Of a stretch of 64,000 nt of DNA, positions 12,646 through 62,140 are shown in pieces. This stretch comes from Acidobacteriota bacterium (GTDB lineage Bacteria > Acidobacteriota > Terriglobia > Bryobacterales > UBA6623): assembly GCA_016125275.1 (NCBI GenBank), contig WGMB01000015.1:186001-250000 (forward strand), given 5' to 3'. How positions within the stretch are numbered: the first letter of the stretch is position 1; every line of letters starts with the position of its first letter. Both the position numbers and the translations under genes were made by a program. Under the pieces are notes generated by a model. It saw only the letters and a program-made list of their open reading frames with translations. It searched no databases and had not been told where the DNA came from.

Positions 12646-13395
12646 TCAGCGGCTCTCGATCGACGCCGAGTACTCGTCGAGCACTGCGTCCACATCGCCC
12701 CAGGCGCGCTTCTTGCCGTACTCCATCCACAGCGCCTTGGTGCAGTAGTGGCGGGCGAAGTCCAAGCTGTGGGTCGCCGCCAGAATCGTCTGCGGACCGT
12801 TGCGGCGCTGCTCGAAGAACTGGTTGCACTTGTCCTTGAAGCGGGCGTCTCCGGCCGTGAAGGCCTCGTCTAGAAACAGGTTCTCGGACTCGGCGTGGCG
12901 CGCCACCGAAAACGCGAACCGGCCCCGCATCCCCGTCGACAAGGTTCGCAGCGGCGCATCCACGAACTCCGTCAGCTCCGCCCACTCCAGCACCTCGTCA
13001 AACACTTCCCGCACCTTCGACCGCCGCATGCCGCAGATCGCTCCGTACAGGAAGAGGTTGTCGCGCAGCGAAAGGTCGCCCACCAGCCCCACGCCCAGGC
13101 CGGCGAAGTATGACACCGCGCCCTCCACCCGCACGCGGCCCTCGGTCGGCCGGTAGATGCCCGCCAGCGTCTTGAGCAGCGTCGTCTTGCCGGCGCCGTT
13201 GTTGCCCACGATGCCGACGATCTCCCCGCGGGCGACCTCCAGGTTCACGTCCGTCAGCGCCCGGAACGTCCTCGCCCGTATCTTGCCGCCGAACACGGCC
13301 CGCCGCAGCAGCCGAAACAGCGTCTCCGAACCGCCATAGCGAAAGTCCTTCGACACGTCCTGCGCCGCAATGCTGATCGGCCTCGGCTCAGACAT
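12646..13395 (-). CDS. Polysaccharide/polyol-phosphate ABC exporter, ATP-binding subunit
   Basis: A 249-residue nucleotide-binding subunit of the Wzt/TagH/KpsT type. It has Walker A GNNGAGKT (64-71), the ABC signature LSTGM (152-156), Walker B NLFLDEA with Glu177, and the ATHSL switch histidine. It lacks the C-terminal sugar-binding extension that the other exporter in this window (53295-54521) has. The ATG at 13395 is chosen because the frame upstream is Arg/Ser/Cys-rich and overlaps the permease gene. With this start the two genes overlap by 8 bases, typical of translational coupling. It energises export of a cell-surface glycan across the inner membrane through the neighbouring permease. 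Confidence 0.9.
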   Translation of the reverse strand: MSEPRPISIAAQDVSKDFRYGGSETLFRLLRRAVFGGKIRARTFRALTDVNLEVARGEIVGIVGNNGAGKTTLLKTLAGIYRPTEGRVRVEGAVSYFAGLGVGLVGDLSLRDNLFLYGAICGMRRSKVREVFDEVLEWAELTEFVDAPLRTLSTGMRGRFAFSVARHAESENLFLDEAFTAGDARFKDKCNQFFEQRRNGPQTILAATHSLDFARHYCTKALWMEYGKKRAWGDVDAVLDEYSASIESR

Positions 13396-14152
13396 TCTCG
13401 GCGAACTCCGGCTCCAGCCGCTTGAACAGGAACAGCGCCGCGCCCAGCAATAGGGCGTTGATGGCGCAGAACGCCGCCAGAGACCCCAGCGACGGCCCCT
13501 CGCCCCGCAACACCGCATCGCGCGAGATCGAGATCACGTAGTACAGCGGGTTGAGCGCGATCAGCGTCCGCGCCACGCCCTCGCCCACCAGCTCCGGCTT
13601 GTAGAAGATCGGCGTGGCGAAGAACAGGATCCGCAGGAACACTTGGTAGACGTGGTCCACGTCGCGCGCGAACGGGTAGATGCTCGACAGCGCCAGGCTC
13701 ACCCACACCACCAGCAGCATTTGCACCAGGATCGACAGCGGAATCAGCAGCCAGCTCAGCCGCGGCTCCACCCCGGTCAGCAGCGCGATCAGCAACGCGA
13801 TCGCCATCGAGATCACGAACTCGATGCTCAACGAGGCGACCATGCTCAGCACGATCAGCTCTTTGGGAAATACCGCCTCAGCGGTCAGCTCCCGGATCGA
13901 GCGCAGGGCCCGCAGCGCCGCGCTGGTCGCATTCGAGAAGTGCGTGTAGTGGATCAGCCCGATCAGCAGGTAGACCGCGTAGTGCTCGATCCCCGCGCCC
14001 ACCTGAAAGCTGAAGAACAGGAACAGGATCAACAGCAGCAGCAGAGGGTGCAGGAAGCTCCAGACGAAGCCGAGAAAGGTGCTCTGATCCTTGAGCTTGT
14101 ACTCCGAGACGATCAGCTCTCGGAGCAGATTCAGATGCCGCTCGTCGTACAT
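13388..14152 (-). CDS. Polysaccharide ABC exporter, permease subunit (ABC-2 type)
   Basis: A 254-residue integral membrane protein with about six hydrophobic segments, preceded by an amphipathic helix (LNLLRELIVSEYKLKDQSTFLGFVW) typical of Wzm/KpsM/TagG permeases. The start at 14152 (MYDERHLN) is preferred over an upstream in-frame codon because the upstream part is basic and lies inside the glycosyltransferase gene; the chosen start still overlaps that gene by 22 bases. It pairs with the ATPase immediately downstream. The cargo is probably a lipid-linked glycan made with the help of the family 2 glycosyltransferase, which is an inference from order. Confidence 0.9.
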   Translation of the reverse strand: MYDERHLNLLRELIVSEYKLKDQSTFLGFVWSFLHPLLLLLILFLFFSFQVGAGIEHYAVYLLIGLIHYTHFSNATSAALRALRSIRELTAEAVFPKELIVLSMVASLSIEFVISMAIALLIALLTGVEPRLSWLLIPLSILVQMLLVVWVSLALSSIYPFARDVDHVYQVFLRILFFATPIFYKPELVGEGVARTLIALNPLYYVISISRDAVLRGEGPSLGSLAAFCAINALLLGAALFLFKRLEPEFAENV

Positions 14153-15036
14153 GGTTGCGGCAGTTGGCGCGCCCAGCGTCGATTGGCGGCCTTGCCCGCC
14201 GCGCGGCTGGTGTAGAAAAGCTTCGCGAACAGGCGCGCCTTCCAAGGAGCGATCCGCGGCACGACCGCGGGAATCGGCTCCGCCGGCGGCGCCGCCCGCG
14301 CTCGCCGCACCAACTCGCCCACGAAGTCTCCGTGCAGCTCATCGATCCGCGGCGCGTAGTAGCCGTGCAGAAAGCCTTCGCGCATCAGGCTACGGACCGT
14401 GTCACGGTTACGGTGGTAGATCACCGCCTGATCGCAGTACTCCAGACGGAACCCCTGCCGCAGCACCCGCAGCGTCAAGTCCACGTCTTCCACCCGCAGC
14501 AGCCTCTCGTCAAAGCCGCCCACGGTACGCAGCACGTCCCTGCGCATGGCTATGTTCATGGTAATGGCGTAGGGCGGCGTAAAGCCTAGAATCGCCCGGC
14601 GATGGTCATGGATCATCTCGCCGAACAGTCCCACGCTGCTGCAAGGCTCCTGCGCCAGAATCCGCCCGCCGACGATGCCGATCGACTCATCGCTCAGCGG
14701 CGCCACAATCCGGCGCACCCACTCGCGGTCCACCACGCAATCCGAGTCGGTGAAGGCGATCAGGTCGCCCGAAGCCTCCCTCACCCCGGCGTTGCGGGCG
14801 GCGGCCGGTCCCAGCGTCGGCTCTGTAACGATTCTCACCCGGCCGTTGTATCCTCTCAGGACGGCAGGCGTCGCGTCGGTCGAAGCGTTGTCCACGCAAA
14901 TCAGCTCCAGCCGGGACGTCGGATAGTCCGAGGCGAGCAGAGAATCCAGGCAACGGGCGATGTCCTGAGGCCGATTCCGGACAGGCACAATCACCGACAC
15001 CGGGGTCGGGGAAATCGCTGGGGCGCAGAGCGACAA
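14131..15036 (-). CDS. Family 2 glycosyltransferase
   Basis: A 301-residue GT-A fold transferase. The N-terminal core shows SVIVPVRNRPQDIARCLDSLL, VDNASTD for nucleotide-sugar binding, and the metal-binding DxD as DSD (97-99). The acceptor-side motif is GGFDERLLRVEDVDLTLR, the ED segment that usually holds the catalytic base. The C-terminal 60 residues are basic and Pro/Ala-rich. It is the first gene of a three-gene unit with the ABC exporter and probably transfers a sugar to the glycan exported by it. It is divergent from the nucleotidyltransferase-like gene, with about 60 bases between the two starts. Confidence 0.9.
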   Translation of the reverse strand: MSLCAPAISPTPVSVIVPVRNRPQDIARCLDSLLASDYPTSRLELICVDNASTDATPAVLRGYNGRVRIVTEPTLGPAAARNAGVREASGDLIAFTDSDCVVDREWVRRIVAPLSDESIGIVGGRILAQEPCSSVGLFGEMIHDHRRAILGFTPPYAITMNIAMRRDVLRTVGGFDERLLRVEDVDLTLRVLRQGFRLEYCDQAVIYHRNRDTVRSLMREGFLHGYYAPRIDELHGDFVGELVRRARAAPPAEPIPAVVPRIAPWKARLFAKLFYTSRAAGKAANRRWARQLPQPCTTSGI

Positions 15037-52855: not shown

Positions 52856-53298
52856 GCTGCGTCTTGGGCGCGGAGATAGTCTTCCAGCAGGATCTGGGCC
52901 GCCATGCGGTCCACCGCCGGCTTTTCCACGCGCGTCCCCGGCCGGGCTTCGCGGAGCCTTTCGCCGGCCTCCACGCTGGTCAGCCGCTCATCCCATAAGA
53001 TCAGCTCCAGGCCGCAGCGTTTCGCTAGGGCCTTGCCGAAACGGGCCGCTTCGCGCGAGGAAGCGCCCGCGCGGCCGTCGAGGTGGACCGGGCGGCCGAC
53101 CAGCAGCCGGCGCGCCTCCAGCCGCCGCGCCACGTCTTCGATCGCCGCCAAGTCCGCTTCGCGGTGGATGTGCTCCACGGTCGGCAGGCCCCGCACCGTG
53201 AGGCCCAGCTCGTCGGAGACCGCCAAGCCGATCCGGCGGCGGCCCCAATCCACGGCCAACGTACGGCCGGGAGCTTCCCTGCCCTCCCCGGCGCTCAT
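52837..53298 (-). CDS. ruvX: Putative pre-16S rRNA nuclease / Holliday junction resolvase RuvX (YqgF)
   Basis: A 153-residue RNase H-like nuclease. The catalytic acidic residues are Asp17 in LAVDWGRRRIGLA, Glu in LILWDERLTSVEA and Asp in VDRMAAQILLEDYL. The VGRPVHLDGRAG segment is typical for the family. In E. coli YqgF trims the 5' end of 16S rRNA; other members cut branched DNA. The start overlaps the end of the Wzt-type ATPase gene by four bases (ATGA), and the end overlaps mltG by 19 bases. The glycan exporter genes directly upstream are an unusual partner for this housekeeping gene. Confidence 0.94.
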   Translation of the reverse strand: MSAGEGREAPGRTLAVDWGRRRIGLAVSDELGLTVRGLPTVEHIHREADLAAIEDVARRLEARRLLVGRPVHLDGRAGASSREAARFGKALAKRCGLELILWDERLTSVEAGERLREARPGTRVEKPAVDRMAAQILLEDYLRAQDAACDASS

Positions 53299-54521
53299 TC
53301 GGCCGGAACCTCTGCTGCGGGGCTGGTCTTCACCTGCACCGTGACGGCCAGATTGGCGACCCCGGCCCGGGCGCGAGCGTCGAGCACGCGAAAGGCGATG
53401 GCGTCGTCGAGCCAGTCGTGGCTATGGCCGGAAGGATGCTGGGTCGCGACGGTCAGGGTGTACTCCTGGGGAGTCAAGGCGCACTCGAACTGGAACTCGA
53501 TGTCGAGACGGTCGCCCTCGCGGCAAGCCGGCAGCGGCGTCTCTTCGATCTTGGTGTTGGTCCCAAAGACTTCCATGCCGGTGCGGGTGCGCACCAGCAC
53601 GCCGACCATCGGCGCGGGCTGGTCGGCGCGGAACTGCGTCCGGATGCGGACGGTCAGCCGCTCGCCGCTGACCGCGGCCCGGGTCGGCGAGCCGTCGGGG
53701 CCGAGCAACTCCACCTCCATGATCTCCGCCAAACGGTCGCCGTGGCGATGGCTGGCGTTCAGCGCCCCCAGCCGGCGGCTCTCGGCGACCTCGGCCTTCT
53801 GCTTCTCGAGCACGGAACCGACGTAGCGGTCGATGACGTGTTTGGGCTCGCCCTCGGCCTGGATGCGGCCGTCCATCAGGAAGATGGCTCGGTCGCAGAG
53901 CTGCTTCACCAAGCCGAGGTCGTGCGAGACGAATACGACGGTCACGCCGGCCTCACGCAGTTCCTCGAACTTCCGCACGCAACGGTTGGCGAAGACGGCG
54001 TCGCCCACGGCGAGGGCTTCATCGACGACGAGAATCTCCGGGTCGGTGTGGATGGCCGTCGCAAAGGCCAGCCGAACGTGCATACCGCTGGAGTAGGTCT
54101 TGACCGGCCGCTCGATGAAGTCCCCGATGCCGGCAAAGCGCTCGATGGAGGGCATGGCGGCCTCGACCTGGTCGCGCGTCAGCCCCATGATCTCGCCGTT
54201 GATGCGGATGTTCTCGCGGCCGGAGAACTCGGGATTGAAGCCGGCGCCCAGCTCGAGCAGGGCGGCCATGCGTCCGCGACGCACGACGTGTCCGGTGGTG
54301 GGGTCGAGGATGCCGCACAGGATCTGCAGCAGGGTGGACTTGCCGCCGCCGTTGGGCCCCACCACGCCGAAGACCTCCCCCCGGGCGACCTCGATGTTGA
54401 CGTCGCGCAAGGCCCAGAACTCCTCATGGCGCGGCCCGGCAAAGGGCAAAGCCTCGCGAATGCGGTCCGACGGCTTGGGATAGAGCCGGTAGAGCTTGGA
54501 GATGTTGCGAGCCAGGAGCAC
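53295..54521 (-). CDS. O-antigen/polysaccharide ABC exporter ATPase with Wzt-type C-terminal domain
   Basis: A 408-residue protein. The ATPase (1-240) has Walker A GPNGGGKS (55-62), signature YSSGM (143-147), Walker B ILVVDEALAVGD and FVSHDL. A linker leads to a beta-sandwich (about 255-400) of the Wzt C-terminal kind, which in E. coli O8/O9a binds the modified glycan end and thereby selects cargo. The start is GTG at 54521; no good ribosome site is seen, and the gap to the permease gene is filled completely by a repeat (54522-54619). The stop overlaps ruvX. It works with the permease at 54620-55846. Confidence 0.9.
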   Translation of the reverse strand: MLLARNISKLYRLYPKPSDRIREALPFAGPRHEEFWALRDVNIEVARGEVFGVVGPNGGGKSTLLQILCGILDPTTGHVVRRGRMAALLELGAGFNPEFSGRENIRINGEIMGLTRDQVEAAMPSIERFAGIGDFIERPVKTYSSGMHVRLAFATAIHTDPEILVVDEALAVGDAVFANRCVRKFEELREAGVTVVFVSHDLGLVKQLCDRAIFLMDGRIQAEGEPKHVIDRYVGSVLEKQKAEVAESRRLGALNASHRHGDRLAEIMEVELLGPDGSPTRAAVSGERLTVRIRTQFRADQPAPMVGVLVRTRTGMEVFGTNTKIEETPLPACREGDRLDIEFQFECALTPQEYTLTVATQHPSGHSHDWLDDAIAFRVLDARARAGVANLAVTVQVKTSPAAEVPAE

Positions 54522-54619: not shown

Positions 54620-55846
54620 CTACAACAAATCCGCAAACTGTTTCTTCAGCTTATAGAACCACGCGTGGCCGAGCAGAAACACCAGCAGCGAAACCGCCGT
54701 GACCGCCGCCAGAGGCTCCAGCGCCGGGGCCCGGCCTTCCAGCAGGACCGCCCGGTACGCTTGCACCAGCACGTACAGGGGATTCTTCTCCAGCAGCCAC
54801 AGCATGTTCGCCGGCATGGACTCTTCCGGGTAGCAGATCGGCGTGATGAAGAACCACACCGTCAGCAGGAATCCCGCGAACTGCCCCAGGTCGCGGAACA
54901 GTACGCCCAGCCCGGCCAGAAACCAGCTCAGCCCCATCGTGAACAGCACCTGCGGCACGAGCAGCGCCGGAATCCACAGCGCCGTCCAGCTCGGGTCGCG
55001 TCCGAAGATCAGCATGCCGCACAGAAAGATCGCCAGCCCGAACAGCTCGCTGAACAGCCCGGCGAAGACCAGATTCGCCGGCAGGATCTCCAGCGGAAAC
55101 ACCAGCTTCTTCACGAAGTTGGCGTGTTCCAACACGACCGTCGGGGCGCGGCCGGCCGCCTCGGAAAACGCCAACCACGGCAGCATGCCGGCCAGAAAAT
55201 ACAGCACGAACGCCCCCGGCCGGTCGTCGTTGGCGAACCGCGCCCGCAGCACCAGCCCAAAAACGAACCAGTAGGTCAGCATCATCATCAACGGATGGAT
55301 GATGGTCCAGAAAGCTCCCGCGTAGGAGCCTGCGTAACGGCCGATGACGTCGCGGCGCACCATCGAGCGAATCAGCGAACGGTTCGCCCACAGCGAGCGC
55401 CAGGGGTAGACCAGCGCGCGTCCCACGCTGCGGACCAATCGCCGGCGGCCCAGGCCGCGCAGGCTGATGACCGACTGCCGCGTCAGCTCCGCGCGGCCGT
55501 TGCGCACGTCGGCCTCGATCAGGCCGAATGGCGAGCCCTGCTCGAAGTACCAGCCCTGCCCCTCCCTCTGCGGGGAGAGGAAGACCGCGTAGCGGCCGTC
55601 CTCGGGCGGCAACGGCACCGCCCACTCCAGCGAGGCTTCGGAGCGAGACGCCACCGGCGCGCCCAGCAAGGCTCTCGGGCCTTCGGCCAGAAGGGTCTCC
55701 TGGTCGCGGTCGTAGATCTGCCAGCCCAGCGCGTCGCCCGCCTCGGAGGTCCAGTCCTGGCGCGAACGGTTGGCGACGACGGCGCGAACCCGGAGCGTGT
55801 GGTCGTCGAGGTCGGCTTCCAGATGCGACCAAGCGGCGCGCATCAT
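54620..55846 (-). CDS. Polysaccharide ABC exporter permease with N-terminal beta-sandwich domain
   Basis: A 408-residue protein. Residues about 150-408 are an ABC-2 permease of the Wzm/TagG type with six spans (WTIIHPLMMMLTYWFVFGLVL, FLLTVWFFITPICYPEESMP). Residues about 5-115 are an extra soluble domain with strands VRAVVANRSRQDW, ALGWQIYDRDQETLL, ASLEWAVPLPPEDGRYAVFL and EGQGWYFEQGSPF. This resembles the beta-sandwich modules found on Wzt ATPases and on some glycan-cluster enzymes; ordinary Wzm proteins lack it. The ATG overlaps the upstream gene by four bases. It exports a lipid-linked glycan with the downstream ATPase. Confidence 0.87.
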   Translation of the reverse strand: MMRAAWSHLEADLDDHTLRVRAVVANRSRQDWTSEAGDALGWQIYDRDQETLLAEGPRALLGAPVASRSEASLEWAVPLPPEDGRYAVFLSPQREGQGWYFEQGSPFGLIEADVRNGRAELTRQSVISLRGLGRRRLVRSVGRALVYPWRSLWANRSLIRSMVRRDVIGRYAGSYAGAFWTIIHPLMMMLTYWFVFGLVLRARFANDDRPGAFVLYFLAGMLPWLAFSEAAGRAPTVVLEHANFVKKLVFPLEILPANLVFAGLFSELFGLAIFLCGMLIFGRDPSWTALWIPALLVPQVLFTMGLSWFLAGLGVLFRDLGQFAGFLLTVWFFITPICYPEESMPANMLWLLEKNPLYVLVQAYRAVLLEGRAPALEPLAAVTAVSLLVFLLGHAWFYKLKKQFADLL

Positions 55847-57945
55847 TCGCCTCCGACGTAGAGGTCCGCGGGATAGCGCGAGCGCACCGGCCCGACCTTG
55901 CGGCCGACGGCGAAGATGGCGTCGTCGCGCAGCGTCTTCGGCAGCTCGTAGCGGTCCAGCAGGTGGTCCACCCAGGCGTGCTCCAGCGAACGGCGCTCCA
56001 GGTAAGGAGCCGTCTCCAGCCGCACGATCTCGAAACCGGCCGCCTCGAACAGGGCCTGCACGTCACGCGGGGCGTACTCGCGCGCATGGCGCGGGTCGCG
56101 TTTGCCCTCTTCGTCCGGAATCACGTAGTGGTGGAACAGTCCCGGGTGATAGTTGAGCAGCATGGCCGCGATCGCGCGACGGCTGCACACGTTGGGCGTC
56201 GACAGCACCAGATGGCCGCCCGGCCGGATCACTCGATTGAGCTCCTGCATCAGGTGCATCGGGTCTTCATACAGGTGCTCGAGCAGCTCGCAGCACAGCA
56301 CCGTCGCAAAGCGATCTTCGGGATAAGGATAACGGTCTTTCTCTGCGTCGAAGTGGTCGATCTCGCACTCGAACGCGGCGCCGGAAGAGGAGGTCACCCG
56401 CCGACGGTCGATCTTCCCCACGGGCCCCAAATAGCAGCCGCGCACCTCGCCGTAGCCCAGCCGCGTCTGCAGCGCGGGGGTGATGTGGAGGTAGGCGCCC
56501 ATCTCGAGCGCGGAGTCGTCGGCGCCGCCGGGAGGCGTCAGCTCGAGCGTGCGGACCAACCGGGTCAAGTGAGTCTCGACGTAAACCGCGTCGTTGGCGC
56601 GGTCGTGGACCCAGGAGCGGATCTCTTCGGCCAACTCAGCCGAATCGGGCGTGTCCTCGGTGGAAGCAGCCTCTTGCGCCGGCTCCGGCGGCGGCGGAGC
56701 CGGCTCGGGGATCGCATCGACCACCTCGGGTTCTTCCGCAGGTTTCTCGGGGACACCGGCTAACAAGTCTTCCGCACCACCCAGCAACGGGTTCCGCAGG
56801 GTCTCCGCGAAGCGCAGCCCCACGGCCCCCCAGGCGCACTCCCGCGCCACGTAGTCCCGGGCGCGCGCACCCAGCGCCTGGCGCACCTCCGGCCGCGCGA
56901 TCAGCAGGTTCAAATACTCGAAGATCAGGTCCGTCTCGCCCGGCCCGACGGGAACCTTCAGGCACACTTCGTCGGGGAGATCGGCGAACGCCCCGACGTC
57001 CGAGACGATCACGGCGCGCCCCAGTCCCAAGGCCCGCAGCAGCGTGCCGGAGGTCTCCCCGACGCTGGGGTAGCGCAGGTTCAGGCAGATGTCGCAGGCC
57101 CCCAGGTACTGCACGAAGTCGTCGATCGGGGCGTAGTCAATGTGGCGAACGTACTCGGAGAGGCCGAGGTCATCGACCATGCGCCGCACGGGGAACTCCG
57201 GGTGCTCCTCGCCCACCAGAATCATCCGCGCCCGGGGCTCCACCCGCACCAAGCGCCGCATGGCGCGCAGCGATTCGCGAATCCGCTTGTACGGCTTGAG
57301 GAACCCGAAGATCCCGATCAGCGGGTTCGTCTCGTCGAGGCCCAGCTTGGCGCGGTAGCGCAGCCGGTCGACCTCCGGGATCCAGGCGCCGTGCGGAATG
57401 CGGTGGACCGGCAGGCCGGCGGCGGCTTCGCGCACGCGCTCGACCATGTAGTCGCTGTGGACAATGACGGCCTTGGCCGCTTCGAGCACGCGCTTGTTCA
57501 GCAGCAGCCCCTCGTAGTCGGGGCCCACTTCCAGGGCTCGCACGCGCCGGGAAAACGCCACGTCCTCCGGCGTCCCCTCGTAGGCCACCTCGCGCAAGTA
57601 GCCGTCCCAGTCGTCGCGCTTGATGGTGGCGTCGGCCACCAGATGGTGCAGGTTGAGCTCGTGCAGCAGGGCCACGCCGGGATGGCGCAGCGCCGTATCG
57701 TACACGTAGATGTGGAACGGGTTGTTGCCGAACTGGTAGAGGGTCTCGTCGAACTCCTCCGGCCGGTACTCCCGAAAGTTCCGCACGCGGATGCCGAGCT
57801 CGGGCGGAAAGGGTTCCGGCTCATAGGCGCCGTCGACGAAGACGGTCACTTCGGCGTGGCGAGCGATTTCGGGCAGCAGCGCGGCGGAGTAGTCCGCAAT
57901 CCCTGACTTCACAGGGCGCAGCGGCGTAAAGACGGCCAGCTTCAT
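55843..57945 (-). CDS. Glycosyltransferase - SAM methyltransferase fusion
   Basis: A 700-residue bifunctional protein. Residues 1-385 are a GT-B glycosyltransferase (PVKSGIADYSAALLPEIARH, GIFGFLKPYKRIRESLRAM, PSVGETSGTLLRALGLGRAVIVSDVGAFADLP). An acidic, Pro-rich linker (about 398-440) follows. Residues about 450-700 are a class I methyltransferase, recognised by LEMGAYLHITPAL, CELLEHLYEDPMHLMQELNRVIRPGGHLVLSTPN and AREYAPRDVQALFEAAGFEI; motif I lacks the usual GxGxG. Methylation of a terminal sugar often caps and ends glycan chains that Wzt-type domains then recognise, a role that fits the adjacent exporter but is inferred. Overlaps both neighbours by four bases. Confidence 0.88.
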   Translation of the reverse strand: MKLAVFTPLRPVKSGIADYSAALLPEIARHAEVTVFVDGAYEPEPFPPELGIRVRNFREYRPEEFDETLYQFGNNPFHIYVYDTALRHPGVALLHELNLHHLVADATIKRDDWDGYLREVAYEGTPEDVAFSRRVRALEVGPDYEGLLLNKRVLEAAKAVIVHSDYMVERVREAAAGLPVHRIPHGAWIPEVDRLRYRAKLGLDETNPLIGIFGFLKPYKRIRESLRAMRRLVRVEPRARMILVGEEHPEFPVRRMVDDLGLSEYVRHIDYAPIDDFVQYLGACDICLNLRYPSVGETSGTLLRALGLGRAVIVSDVGAFADLPDEVCLKVPVGPGETDLIFEYLNLLIARPEVRQALGARARDYVARECAWGAVGLRFAETLRNPLLGGAEDLLAGVPEKPAEEPEVVDAIPEPAPPPPEPAQEAASTEDTPDSAELAEEIRSWVHDRANDAVYVETHLTRLVRTLELTPPGGADDSALEMGAYLHITPALQTRLGYGEVRGCYLGPVGKIDRRRVTSSSGAAFECEIDHFDAEKDRYPYPEDRFATVLCCELLEHLYEDPMHLMQELNRVIRPGGHLVLSTPNVCSRRAIAAMLLNYHPGLFHHYVIPDEEGKRDPRHAREYAPRDVQALFEAAGFEIVRLETAPYLERRSLEHAWVDHLLDRYELPKTLRDDAIFAVGRKVGPVRSRYPADLYVGGE

Positions 57946-58652
57946 TCCACGAGCTTCAGCGAGAAAACCCCGAGGCTGAAGGGGACCTTGATCAACAACG
58001 GCGTGCGCGCGTCATCCTTGCCGAAGAAGATCTCGAAGTGATGGGAGGACTGCGGCCCGTTGAGGTCGACGAGAATGCGGTCGGCTTCGCGGTTTTCGCC
58101 CTGCACGGCCACGTCCCGCGACTCCGCGTAGGTGACCACGACGCCGTACATCGCGCCGAAGTTCAGGTCGTCCGGCGGAGGGATGCGGCCCGCGGCCAAG
58201 TCCCGCCGCAGAGCGTACAGATAGGTCAACCCGTCGCGCACGCAAGGCGGCACGGAAAACTCGCTCACGCCGCCGCCGCCCAGAGACTCCCGCGTGGCCC
58301 TCTGCTCCTTCTGATCGAAGACGACCTCCTCGTGAGTCTGCTTGGAACCATGCAGCGAGTCGCGCTTGAGCTGCTGCGAGCACAGGTTCCAGTCCGCGGA
58401 GGCCTCGTACTGGTCCAAGACCTCGAAGTTCGGCAGGCTGGCGGAGATCTCGGCTTTCAGCTCCCAACCCTTCTGGTTGGAGTTGGCCCGAAACTCGGCT
58501 TCGCCCAGCGACAAACCGCTCGGCCAGACGACCTCGTAGCGCAGCACCTCGCCGTTCTTGAAGGGGGTGGCCTGGGGCTGTTCCGCAAACCCTCCCACCG
58601 GCAGAGCCAGGGCAAGCGCCGCCGCTGTGCAAACAAAACTGGAGAGATTCAC
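57942..58652 (-). CDS. DUF3108 family exported protein
   Basis: A 236-residue protein with a signal peptide (1-23, VGGFAEQ). The body shows the DUF3108 pattern: FKNGEVLRYEVVWPSGLSLGEAEFRA, YEASADWNLCSQQLKRDSLHGSKQTHEEVVFDQKEQRAT, a VRDGLTYLYALRR segment and a C-terminal FFGKDDARTPLLIKVPFSLGVFSLKL. The family is periplasmic and beta-rich, of unknown function, possibly a lipid- or polymer-binding barrel. It sits between two glycosyltransferase genes with four-base overlaps on both sides, so it is part of the glycan operon. Confidence 0.85.
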   Translation of the reverse strand: MNLSSFVCTAAALALALPVGGFAEQPQATPFKNGEVLRYEVVWPSGLSLGEAEFRANSNQKGWELKAEISASLPNFEVLDQYEASADWNLCSQQLKRDSLHGSKQTHEEVVFDQKEQRATRESLGGGGVSEFSVPPCVRDGLTYLYALRRDLAAGRIPPPDDLNFGAMYGVVVTYAESRDVAVQGENREADRILVDLNGPQSSHHFEIFFGKDDARTPLLIKVPFSLGVFSLKLVE

Positions 58653-59809
58653 CGGACGACCAGCTCCTTTTCGCGGACTTTCCGCGTCTGTCGTCGCTCG
58701 CCGGCGACTTCTTGATAGACGTCCAGGGTACGCTGCGCGGTTTCCCGCCAGTCAAAGAACTTCGAGCGCTGGAGGCTCTTCTTCTCCATGCGCTGGGAGA
58801 GCTCGCGGTCGATCAGCACGTCGCGCATGGCGCGCATCTGCTCGCCCGTCGAGGCGGGGTCGAACAGCAAAGCCGCGCCGTCGACCACTTCCGGCAGCGC
58901 GGTGGCGCCGGAGCACACGACCGGACGACCGCAGGCCATGGCCTCGATGGCCGGCAGCCCGAAGCCCTCATAGAAGGAGGGAAAGACGAACAGATCCGCC
59001 GCGTTGTAGAGCGTGGGCAGAAACTCGTCGTCCACGAAGCGGGTGAACACCACGCGCTCCTGCAGCCCGCAGCGGCGGACTTCCTCGATCACGCGCGGGG
59101 CGAACCAGGTGTGCTTGCCCGCCATCACCAGCAGGTGCGGCAGCTCCGGATGCGCGGCGAGCAGCTCACGGAAGGCGCGCACCATGCCGATTTGGTTCTT
59201 GCGGGGGTGCAGGTCGCCCACGTTGAGCAGGTAGGGCCGATCGATACCGAGCTTCTCGCGCACCTTGCGCATCGCCGACTCGCGGTTCATCAGCCGGAAG
59301 TGGTCCTGCGAGGCGTTGGGCGTGACGACGATCTCGGCCGGGTCGAGACCGTAGGCGGCGGCAATGCGCTGCCGGGAGAACTCGCTGACCGTGATGATCT
59401 TGGCCGCCCGCCGCACCGTCCGCCGCACGGTGATCTGGAGCTGCTTGGCGCGGGTGTACGGCAGGTACTGTGGATGATCCAGATAGCTCACGTCGTGGAT
59501 GGTCACCACGATCGGCGCCGGGCAGGCCAGCGGCGCGGTGTACTGCACGTGCACCACGTCCGGCCGGTCGCGCCGCAGCTTGGCGCTGAGGTCGTAGCCC
59601 AGCCGCACAAAAGGGTTGCCGGCCACCTTGGCGAGCTCGAAGCTGGCAGGCGCCCATTCGCGGGCCTCTTCCGAGCAGATGTAGCCGATGAAGTCCATCT
59701 CCGGCGCGAGCCGGGGGTAGCGCTGAATGAGGCTGCGAACATAGACCTCATTGCCCGTCTGGCGTCGCCCGATGGCGTGTGCGTCGACTGCGATCCGGAT
59801 TCTCGACAA
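58649..59809 (-). CDS. Family 4 glycosyltransferase
   Basis: A 386-residue GT-B transferase. It has RIRIAVDAHAIGRRQTGNEVYVRSL at the N-terminus, VVTIHDVSYLDHPQYL, the linker LLNVGDLHPRKNQ, and the donor-binding SFYEGFGLPAIEAMACGRPVVCS with its Glu-x7-Glu pair. No ATG is near the first strand; TTG at 59809 starts two bases after the upstream gene's TAG and has GGCGGA before it, so I prefer it to an upstream codon that would overlap the previous gene by 94 bases. The product is a mannosyl- or rhamnosyl-type transferase by family; donor and acceptor are unknown. Confidence 0.88.
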   Translation of the reverse strand: MSRIRIAVDAHAIGRRQTGNEVYVRSLIQRYPRLAPEMDFIGYICSEEAREWAPASFELAKVAGNPFVRLGYDLSAKLRRDRPDVVHVQYTAPLACPAPIVVTIHDVSYLDHPQYLPYTRAKQLQITVRRTVRRAAKIITVSEFSRQRIAAAYGLDPAEIVVTPNASQDHFRLMNRESAMRKVREKLGIDRPYLLNVGDLHPRKNQIGMVRAFRELLAAHPELPHLLVMAGKHTWFAPRVIEEVRRCGLQERVVFTRFVDDEFLPTLYNAADLFVFPSFYEGFGLPAIEAMACGRPVVCSGATALPEVVDGAALLFDPASTGEQMRAMRDVLIDRELSQRMEKKSLQRSKFFDWRETAQRTLDVYQEVAGERRQTRKVREKELVVR

Positions 59810-59811
59810 AG

Positions 59812-61074
59812 CTATTCCGCCGTCACTAGGCCGCCGCGACTCCAAGCGGCGTGTTGAAGGATTCCGAGAGACCGATCCAGGCGTTCCCAGGCCGCCGGCC
59901 AGCACAGCTCACGCTCGAACGTCTCCCGTCCCGCCGCGCCAAGCCGGGCCCTCGACGCGGGATCATCAAGCAAGCGAACCACCGTTCCCACCCAATCTGT
60001 TGCGCTTCGAGCCAGAACGATATTCACTCCGTCTTCCGCAGGTAGACCTTCGGCGCCGATCGGCGTGGAAACAACAGCACGCCGCGCAGCCCAGGCTTCC
60101 ATGATTTTAACCCGAGTTCCGCTGCCCGCCAGCAAGGGGGCTATGGCTACATCCGCGCCGGATAGCTCGCGAAGAGCGTCATCGACCGGTCCGGTGAGCT
60201 CGATCCGGGCATCGCCCTGGACCAGGCTTCGCACCGCATGCTCATTCTTTCCAATCAGTTTCCAGACCAAGCCGGGCCTGAGCCTGCTCAGCTCCGGCCA
60301 GATCCGTGTTCGGAAGAATCTCACAGCCGTGATATTGGGATGGTATTCCAAATTTCCCGAAAAGGCGATCACTTCCCGTTGGTTTGATCCCTGGGATACG
60401 GGGGCCGGCCGCAGCGGCAACGCATTGGGATACACCGCGACGCGAGCCGTGGGGCTGATGCGTAGAACCCGCTCGGCGTCTTGCTGTGAGGTGGTCAGAA
60501 TCAAATCGAACAGCGGAAAGAGCCGCCTTTCCCAGCGTTCGGCGTGGCGCTGAAAGATTCGGTGCGCCAAGCGCTGCGGCCAGGGTTCGGTGCGTGCGCA
60601 CGCAGCGTGTAAAGCTGACTCGACGTTGTGTAAATCCAACACGACGCGCTCGGCACGGCGGCGGAGCAAAGGGAGATACCCGGCGCACCAGAAGTGTTCC
60701 GCAATTGCCACGGAATACCGTTTCGATTGCGTTACTCGCTCCACCTGCCGCAAGGTCTCGGGCTGGCCGAAACGGTCCAGCAAAGGCGGACGGCCCATCG
60801 CCAGGCGGCGGGCGTTGCGAGAAGCCCGCGTGATGGCGCTGCGGCCGTGCCGGGGCAGCAAGACGAGGTCGACGGCGTCGACCAAATCGGCCGGCAGATC
60901 CCGGCCAGGCTCGGATTCGGGTTGCTCGGAGAAGCGGACCAGATGCACCGGCCGGCGCTCGGCCAAGTAGTGCAATAGGCTGGCGGTTCGCATGGAGCCG
61001 CCGCCGTGCAGCGGGTACGGCGCCTCCGGCGAGAGCAAGAGCGCTCGGTCAGACTCGGCCAAGGACCTGCTCAT
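59812..61074 (-). CDS. Glycosyltransferase (GT-B, GT4/GT1-like)
   Basis: A 420-residue transferase. The N-terminus LLLSPEAPYPLHGGGSMRTASLLHYLAERRPVHLV holds the acceptor-side glycine loop; DLHNVESALHAACARTEP, VIAFSGNLEYHPNITAVRFF and GSGTRVKIMEAWAARRAVVSTPIGAEGL are the central and donor-site motifs. The last is the usual E-x7-E type region in a GT4 variant found in exopolysaccharide clusters. Part of the gene (about 60000-60700) looks less GC-rich than its neighbours. The ATG overlaps the upstream glycosyltransferase by 26 bases. Confidence 0.88.
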   Translation of the reverse strand: MSRSLAESDRALLLSPEAPYPLHGGGSMRTASLLHYLAERRPVHLVRFSEQPESEPGRDLPADLVDAVDLVLLPRHGRSAITRASRNARRLAMGRPPLLDRFGQPETLRQVERVTQSKRYSVAIAEHFWCAGYLPLLRRRAERVVLDLHNVESALHAACARTEPWPQRLAHRIFQRHAERWERRLFPLFDLILTTSQQDAERVLRISPTARVAVYPNALPLRPAPVSQGSNQREVIAFSGNLEYHPNITAVRFFRTRIWPELSRLRPGLVWKLIGKNEHAVRSLVQGDARIELTGPVDDALRELSGADVAIAPLLAGSGTRVKIMEAWAARRAVVSTPIGAEGLPAEDGVNIVLARSATDWVGTVVRLLDDPASRARLGAAGRETFERELCWPAAWERLDRSLGILQHAAWSRGGLVTAE

Positions 61075-62140
61075 AGATCTTGCGGGTCGCCTCCGCAGTC
61101 TTGCGCCAAGACAGCTCCGCGGCTCGGCGGTAGCCTTGCATCCTCAGGCTCTCGGCAGCCGCCGGATCGCTCGCAAGCTTGCCGATCAGCCCGGCGAGCT
61201 CGTCGGACGAGCGCGCATCGAAATGCCAAGCCGCCCCGCCCGCCGCTTCCACCACGGCCGGGTCCTGAGAGGCCAGGACCGGAACGCCGGAGCGCATGGC
61301 CTCCACGACGGGCAGGCCGAAGCCTTCGTAGAGGCTAGGATAAACAAACGCCAGCGCGCCGGACAACAGCGCCGCGGTCTGCTCGTCGTCGGCGAGTTCG
61401 AGCGCCAGTAGGGCCGCACAGCCCTCGGCGGCGTACCGACCGGCGCCGGCCCCCACGATCACCAGACCCAGCTCCGCGTCGCTGCGGCGGGCCTTCTTCC
61501 AGGCTTCGACCAGACACGGGATGTTCTTGCGCTCGTTGCCCGCCCCGATCGCCAGCAGGTAGCGCGGCGGCGCTCCCAGGGCGGCCCGCAGTGCGCCGGC
61601 CCGAGCCGGCTCCGGCGCGGCCAGCGCTTCGCTAGGGGCGTGGTGCACGGCCTGGACCCGCTCCGGCGCCAGGCCGAAGGCGGCGATCGCTTCCCGACGG
61701 ATCGCCTCGGTCGGCGTAATCACCCGTCGCGCCAGACGAAGCAGGCGCGGCGTCCTGCGCCGCACGCGCTCCGAGCCCGGCGGCCTTAGCGGCTCCGGCT
61801 TCCAGGGCGACAGATCGTGCAGCGTCATCACCGACGGAGTCACAGGCACGTAAGGGACCGCAAAATCGGTTCCGTGAAAAACGTCGATCCGGCGGCGGCG
61901 CAGCTCGAGCGGCAAGCCCAGGCTCCACCATTTGGAGCGAGCCCAGCCGCTCCCCGGCTCACGCCGCACGTTCGGCAGCGACTCCAGGCGCGGGTCCCAC
62001 CACAGCTCGGTCTGGTCGCTCAGCAGATGCACCTCGTCGTCCGGCTGATTCTGCGCAAGAGCCAGGGCCAACTCGGCGACGTAGCGCGCCAGCCCGCCCG
62101 CCGGCTCCACCAGCGGCGTCGCGTCGAGCGCGATCCGCAC
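61049..62140 (-). CDS. Family 4 glycosyltransferase
   Basis: A 363-residue GT-B transferase opening MRIALDATPLVEPAGGLARYVAELALAL. Further motifs are DVFHGTDFAVPYVPVTPSVMTLHDLSPW, LLAIGAGNERKNIPCLVEAWKKAR and the donor site SLYEGFGLPVVEAMRSGVPVLAS with its Glu-x7-Glu. The start is three bases after the TrmH-family gene, so both are probably on one transcript. First of three consecutive glycosyltransferases in the glycan cluster. Confidence 0.9.
   Translation of the reverse strand: MRIALDATPLVEPAGGLARYVAELALALAQNQPDDEVHLLSDQTELWWDPRLESLPNVRREPGSGWARSKWWSLGLPLELRRRRIDVFHGTDFAVPYVPVTPSVMTLHDLSPWKPEPLRPPGSERVRRRTPRLLRLARRVITPTEAIRREAIAAFGLAPERVQAVHHAPSEALAAPEPARAGALRAALGAPPRYLLAIGAGNERKNIPCLVEAWKKARRSDAELGLVIVGAGAGRYAAEGCAALLALELADDEQTAALLSGALAFVYPSLYEGFGLPVVEAMRSGVPVLASQDPAVVEAAGGAAWHFDARSSDELAGLIGKLASDPAAAESLRMQGYRRAAELSWRKTAEATRKIYEQVLGRV

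Follow-up and report, generated by a model that had tools for sequence, protein, structure and literature searches.

In the ABC exporters of A. aeolicus and of the E. coli O8/O9a type, the carbohydrate-binding domain (CBD) has been described on the ATPase subunit, Wzt (PMC9445017, PMC11231755), and for ORF6, the terminator of the K. pneumoniae O7 system, an Ig-like carbohydrate-binding module (CBM) has been predicted (PMC11231755). The locus described here lies in a window of 64,000 nucleotides, the whole stretch of DNA analysed, from an Acidobacteriota bacterium. It resembles the A. aeolicus Wzm-Wzt (PDB 7k2t, 8dku, 8dl0) and the E. coli O8/O9a type in its permease core, its Wzt_C-bearing ATPase, and its nearby glycosyltransferases (GTs) and methyltransferase (MT); unlike them, its Wzm carries an additional N-terminal sandwich, and many of its relatives encode Wzt elsewhere. 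As in O7 ORF6, an Ig-like module is found on a glycan-assembly protein other than Wzt, but the ORF6 module belongs to a terminating enzyme and not to a permease. No description of a Wzm with an N-terminal extension was found in the literature searched, whose scope did not extend to the 2019 Glycobiology survey of CBMs and ABC transporters (Mann, Kimber, Whitfield). To judge from the sequence, the permease-borne sandwich is a real and new variation on a known exporter, and it is plausible that the module reads glycan.

Architecture of the exporter and its operon

The permease and the ATPase (Table 1) point to an ABC exporter of the Wzm-Wzt type, and the glycosyltransferase operon suggests a lipid-linked surface polysaccharide as its predicted cargo. 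The permease is a Wzm-fold ABC-2 protein by its PF01061 match together with the fold match of its core to A. aeolicus Wzm 7k2t_B (Foldseek, TMt 0.92, rmsd 2.2); the core also matches TarG in the fold search (TMt 0.88), and in phmmer the permease matches 6m96_B, likewise an A. aeolicus Wzm, with E 3.8e-26. A Pfam scan of the permease returned no domain besides ABC2_membrane. In the full-length AlphaFold2 model (pLDDT 91.8), helices 129-154 and 156-171 lie between the sandwich and TM1. A preliminary description, made from the letters of the window, had placed a sandwich ahead of a complete ABC-2 permease, and the models (pLDDT 96 for the sandwich, together with the Wzm core match) bear this out; the soluble, strand-containing stretch that it put at about 115 residues is indeed a soluble sandwich, but its length is about 127.

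Table 1. Features of the exporter locus, with positions in the window.
Feature	Coordinates	Strand	Basis
Wzt-type ATPase, 408 aa, GTG start	53295..54521	(-)	ABC_tran + Wzt_C; full-length A. aeolicus Wzt 8dku_A E 2.7e-89, best PDB match
Wzt_C carbohydrate-binding-type domain, residues 257-389	53355..53753	(-)	PF14524 E 1.6e-33
Wzm-type permease with N-terminal Ig-like module, 408 aa	54620..55846	(-)	ORF list, ABC2_membrane, phmmer, Foldseek
ABC-2 membrane domain, residues 159-368	54743..55372	(-)	PF01061 E 1.3e-24
Two basic helices, residues 129-171, module-to-TM1 joint	55334..55462	(-)	AF2 model + charge count
N-terminal beta-sandwich module, residues 1-127	55466..55846	(-)	AF2 model, 41-row alignment A1, homology to Ig-like modules elsewhere
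Glycosyltransferase + methyltransferase fusion, 700 aa, overlaps permease start	55843..57945	(-)	Glycos_transf_1 + Methyltransf_23
DUF3108 protein, same operon	57942..58652	(-)	PF11306; syntenic
GT4-type glycosyltransferase	58649..59905	(-)	Pfam, synteny
GT4-type glycosyltransferase	59812..61074	(-)	Pfam, synteny
GT4-type glycosyltransferase	61049..62140	(-)	Pfam, synteny

The ATG start codon of the permease overlaps the stop codon of the upstream GT-methyltransferase gene (gcgaATGATGcgc), and this -4 overlap recurs in 15 of 39 relatives' loci; the N-terminal stretch is therefore a genuine part of the permease, and a wrongly assigned start is excluded as its source by the overlap here and in those relatives. 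The stretch between the module and TM1 is strongly basic (12 K+R against 1 D+E over 45 residues), so the joint is probably on the cytoplasmic side.

The partner ATPase does carry a Wzt-type C-terminal sandwich (PF14524), as had been proposed, and its presence is as in the capped, CBD-dependent subtype. The GT/MT fusion reported as adjacent was confirmed directly upstream of the permease, and 39 of the 40 loci of relatives have it; it is a candidate for the terminator that would modify the non-reducing end in the capped subtype, and its interdomain linker is proline- and acid-rich and, by eye, without a long coiled coil. The order GT4-GT4-GT4-DUF3108-GT/MT-Wzm is conserved in most relatives. 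Wzt adjoins Wzm in the source genome and, among the 40 relatives' loci, only in G315, while orthologous Wzts (50-66% identical) are encoded elsewhere in the relatives' genomes. Most Bryobacteraceae thus have a split exporter, with Wzm in the GT operon and its cognate Wzt elsewhere, the pairing in unlinked genomes being assigned by orthology. Since the fusion-bearing genomes of other families (six) have Wzt directly downstream of Wzm, this linkage is probably ancestral and was then lost in Bryobacteraceae. In about 8 of 19 relatives (L118-L136), the unlinked Wzt comes right after a large phage-tail-like gene, which encodes either a tail fibre J / Phage-tail_3 protein or a tail-sheath TIM-barrel protein. 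The window also contains a second ABC-2 permease (12652-14197, minus strand), 28% identical and accompanied by a short ATPase without Wzt_C.

Fold and relatives of the N-terminal module

Residues 4-127 are predicted to form an eight-strand beta-sandwich (AlphaFold2 with 41 homologues, pLDDT 96). Five positions (N26, W32, G56, G84, and W99) are invariant in the 41-row alignment A1, and conservation across this alignment argues that the strand pattern is not due to chance; in the full-length majority of modules, W32, W99, and Y/F101 are strongly conserved. The module family has in common the motif N-x-S/G-x-x-x-W ... PG ... G-R-Y ... E-G-x-x-W-F/Y-x-x-x-G. Reduced modules occur in L062, L063, and L081, in which the core strands are kept and the N-x-S-x-x-x-W and W-x-Y stretches are gone.

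The fold search related the module to the Wzt CBDs 8dl0_C, 8dky, 6o14, and 2r5o with TMq values of 0.46-0.49 (about 0.49 for 8dl0_C and 8dky). The CBD in 8dky is the one bound to 3-O-methyl-mannose. The module and Wzt_C thus have the beta-sandwich fold class in common, as sandwiches of Ig/jelly-roll type, but many other Ig-like folds rank equally, and GH3 beta-glucosidases, BsuPI, ApaG, and TRAP stand level with the Wzt CBDs. The fold check proposed in the preliminary description therefore gives a beta-sandwich with Wzt CBDs among its neighbours, although not as its top matches. Module profiles gave no useful match among PDB sequences. Wzt_C differs in being on the other subunit, in the N-terminal position of the permease module, and in its Pfam model, PF14524, which does not recognise the source-genome copy and matches one of the 41 permease modules at E 0.24. 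The strand-swapped dimer and cap binding are features of Wzt_C. In hhalign, the permease modules compared with the Wzt_C of orthologous and paralogous Wzts reached a probability of 7%, and this value, together with the PF14524 result, rules out the module as a plain duplication of Wzt_C.

The wider module family reached 59% (E 9.1e-5) against Wzt_C. Its score of 33.5 compares with a maximum of 21.4 in 150 column shuffles and with 12.6-16.0 for five families that are unrelated but encoded at the same loci. A remote kinship of the module family and Wzt_C is suggested by this similarity, for which the controls were the shuffles and the five same-locus families, none of them Ig-like.

The profile comparisons place the module in an Ig-like family near the 'FW' domain of NBR1 (PF16158, N_BRCA1_IG), and not as a copied Wzt_C. 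A search with the permease module profile matched methyltransferases, a GT4 protein, radical-SAM/SPASM proteins, and a glycoside-hydrolase-like protein, and its best match was a three-copy protein (E down to 6e-42). A profile built from these relatives only (methyltransferases, GT4, radical-SAM, and GH-like) aligned to the permease module with a probability of 99.6% (hhalign, E 1.2e-24). Methyltransferases in the class sample also bear the same Ig-like module; the bias of the module toward glycan-assembly proteins is a qualitative one. Further carriers were observed in the class sample: O-antigen ligases (Wzy_C) with the module inserted midway along the membrane protein (L292:130-1695(-), L298:2942-4585(-), and L301:3273-4967(+)), a GT2-CBM4_9-methyltransferase of 1319 aa (L302:3922-7878(-)), and PIG-L deacetylases (L303:2891-5059(+) and L304:3136-5280(-)).

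The likeness to FW/NBR1 consists of the Ig-like sandwich and of weak PF16158 matches in 26 of the 41 permease modules (best E 1.4e-5). The source-genome copy has no such match and, missing the curated cut-off, is not a member of PF16158, whereas two relatives of the module pass the 28-bit cut-off, L013 with 46.1 bits and L299 with 54.3. Four tryptophans are conserved in FW; when these were sought in the permease modules, W32 and W99 alone were invariant, and here a W-F/Y-x-x-x-G segment is conserved. The FW domain of CtNbr1 is characterized by an N-terminal-peptide pocket (F651, D654, D658, and W763). No FW entry was found among PDB sequences with the A4 profile.

Distribution, gain, and loss of the fusion

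A member of the permease clade was identified in 105 of 150 genomes of the order (best E below 1e-80), and most of these permeases bear the module. In the phylum sample, 205 of 396 genomes contain a Wzm-type match (E 1e-40) and, among the matches listed, only two of these 205 genomes, the source genome and G187, both belonging to the order, have a match that spans the module; the other matches listed start no earlier than about position 82 of the model. The possibility that the module is a general Wzm feature is thus ruled out by the phylum sample, in which the matches listed outside the clade are without the N-terminus. The preliminary description had named an N-terminus common to most permeases of the family as the finding that would count against it; this is not the case outside the clade, although within the clade most members do have the module. 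The source genome holds one module copy, and its other Wzm paralogues are without it. The same fusion is present in six class-sample genomes of other families (G543, G546, G549, G553, G565, and G580). A pattern scan, from which all coverage beyond Acidobacteriota comes, gave named matches in Bryobacterales, Solibacteraceae, and similar Acidobacteriota metagenome-assembled genomes (MAGs), and a search of plasmid records gave no match.

In a midpoint-rooted tree of 122 permeases, all the module-bearing ones fall into one 110-row clade with support of 100/97. Module-less and reduced forms are nested within it, some of the rows scored as module-less (L220 and L225) being truncated at contig ends or by masking, and this nesting in a supported clade argues for a single gain of the module followed by several losses or reductions. 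The comparisons make the fusion ancestral to one Terriglobia clade, mainly Bryobacterales, and kept in most of its members. The module was lost in G351, G388, G399, and G407, which suggests that export does not require the module; the GT/MT is still there in all four, and G351 and G407 retain a Wzt bearing Wzt_C.

Other records were considered as well. A candidate fusion in Pseudomonas (L245, aligned from residue 28) was rejected, as its ORF is without the module. Over about 7 kb around the closest Acidobacteriota Wzm permeases from outside the clade (L259-L263, families f22 and f71), no Wzt-like ATPase is encoded. Finally, L228, from a record titled Bordetella parapertussis MAG, is a typical Bryobacterales permease of the clade, and the title is probably wrong.

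Possible roles of the module

We propose that, in the ancestor of one Terriglobia clade, the permease gained its N-terminal module once, from an Ig-like family whose members recur on proteins of glycan assembly. It would be cytoplasmic, directly ahead of the interface helix beside the substrate portal, where it would most likely touch the cargo glycan as an accessory site and help guide the chain into the channel, while recognition of the finished end would probably stay primarily with Wzt_C. We give this reading an even chance of being correct. Because the module recurs on glycan-assembly proteins of the cytoplasm and probably of the periplasm too, a common glycan ligand is the simplest account, and a module that is conserved but dispensable fits an accessory contact, with cargo or with an enzyme, better than an obligatory second cap reader. 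That Wzt CBDs, including 8dky, are fold neighbours of the module but not its top matches counts both for and against cargo contact. We know of no ligand for any member of the bacterial module family.

The enzyme contact just mentioned, the main rival reading, would make the module a protein docking site that holds the GT-methyltransferase or another biosynthetic enzyme and couples chain termination to export. It is important to note that the nearest Pfam family of the module is N_BRCA1_IG, whose best-studied domain, FW of Nbr1, has a protein N-terminus as its ligand (PMC9233695), and that the GT-MT gene lies directly upstream of the permease and often overlaps it. We nevertheless consider docking rather unlikely, given two invariant tryptophans in place of four, a GT-MT that is kept where the module is lost, and a family found on so many unrelated enzymes that many different protein partners would be needed. 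The same losses and reductions, in lineages keeping the GT-MT fusion and a Wzt_C-bearing Wzt, argue against an obligatory two-reader cap mechanism, and a true second cap reader, in which the Wzm module and Wzt_C both bind the methylated chain end, is to us improbable. Both domains are beta-sandwiches, a methyltransferase adjoins the permease, and the profile similarity of the module family to Wzt_C is suggestive; however, when the permease module itself is compared with Wzt_C the similarity is weak, as is the PF14524 result. A ligand-free structural or regulatory addition, for example a stabiliser of the permease dimer, a portal gate, or a position sensor for Wzt_C, would agree with the several genera (L062, L063, and L081) that keep the module core after dropping its most conserved loops, but it appears improbable, since the conservation of W32, W99, and Y/F101 suggests a binding site, even if these could also be core residues.

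Beyond the accessory cargo contact that we prefer, it is possible, though doubtful, that Acidobacteriota have an Ig-like glycan-contact family, so far unrecognised, with members at successive steps of surface-polysaccharide assembly (transferase, methyltransferase, exporter, and O-antigen ligase), that the permease module is its representative on the exporter, and that one kind of module thus follows the chain from synthesis to ligation. To our knowledge, the choice and loading of glycan by Wzm-Wzt exporters have been worked out only where Wzt bears the reading domain. A permease-borne module with one gain and several losses would offer natural comparisons, with and without the module, for portal-side cargo selection, and our study flags a family of modules that O-antigen ligases and further sugar-assembly proteins carry in a soil phylum that is abundant but little studied.
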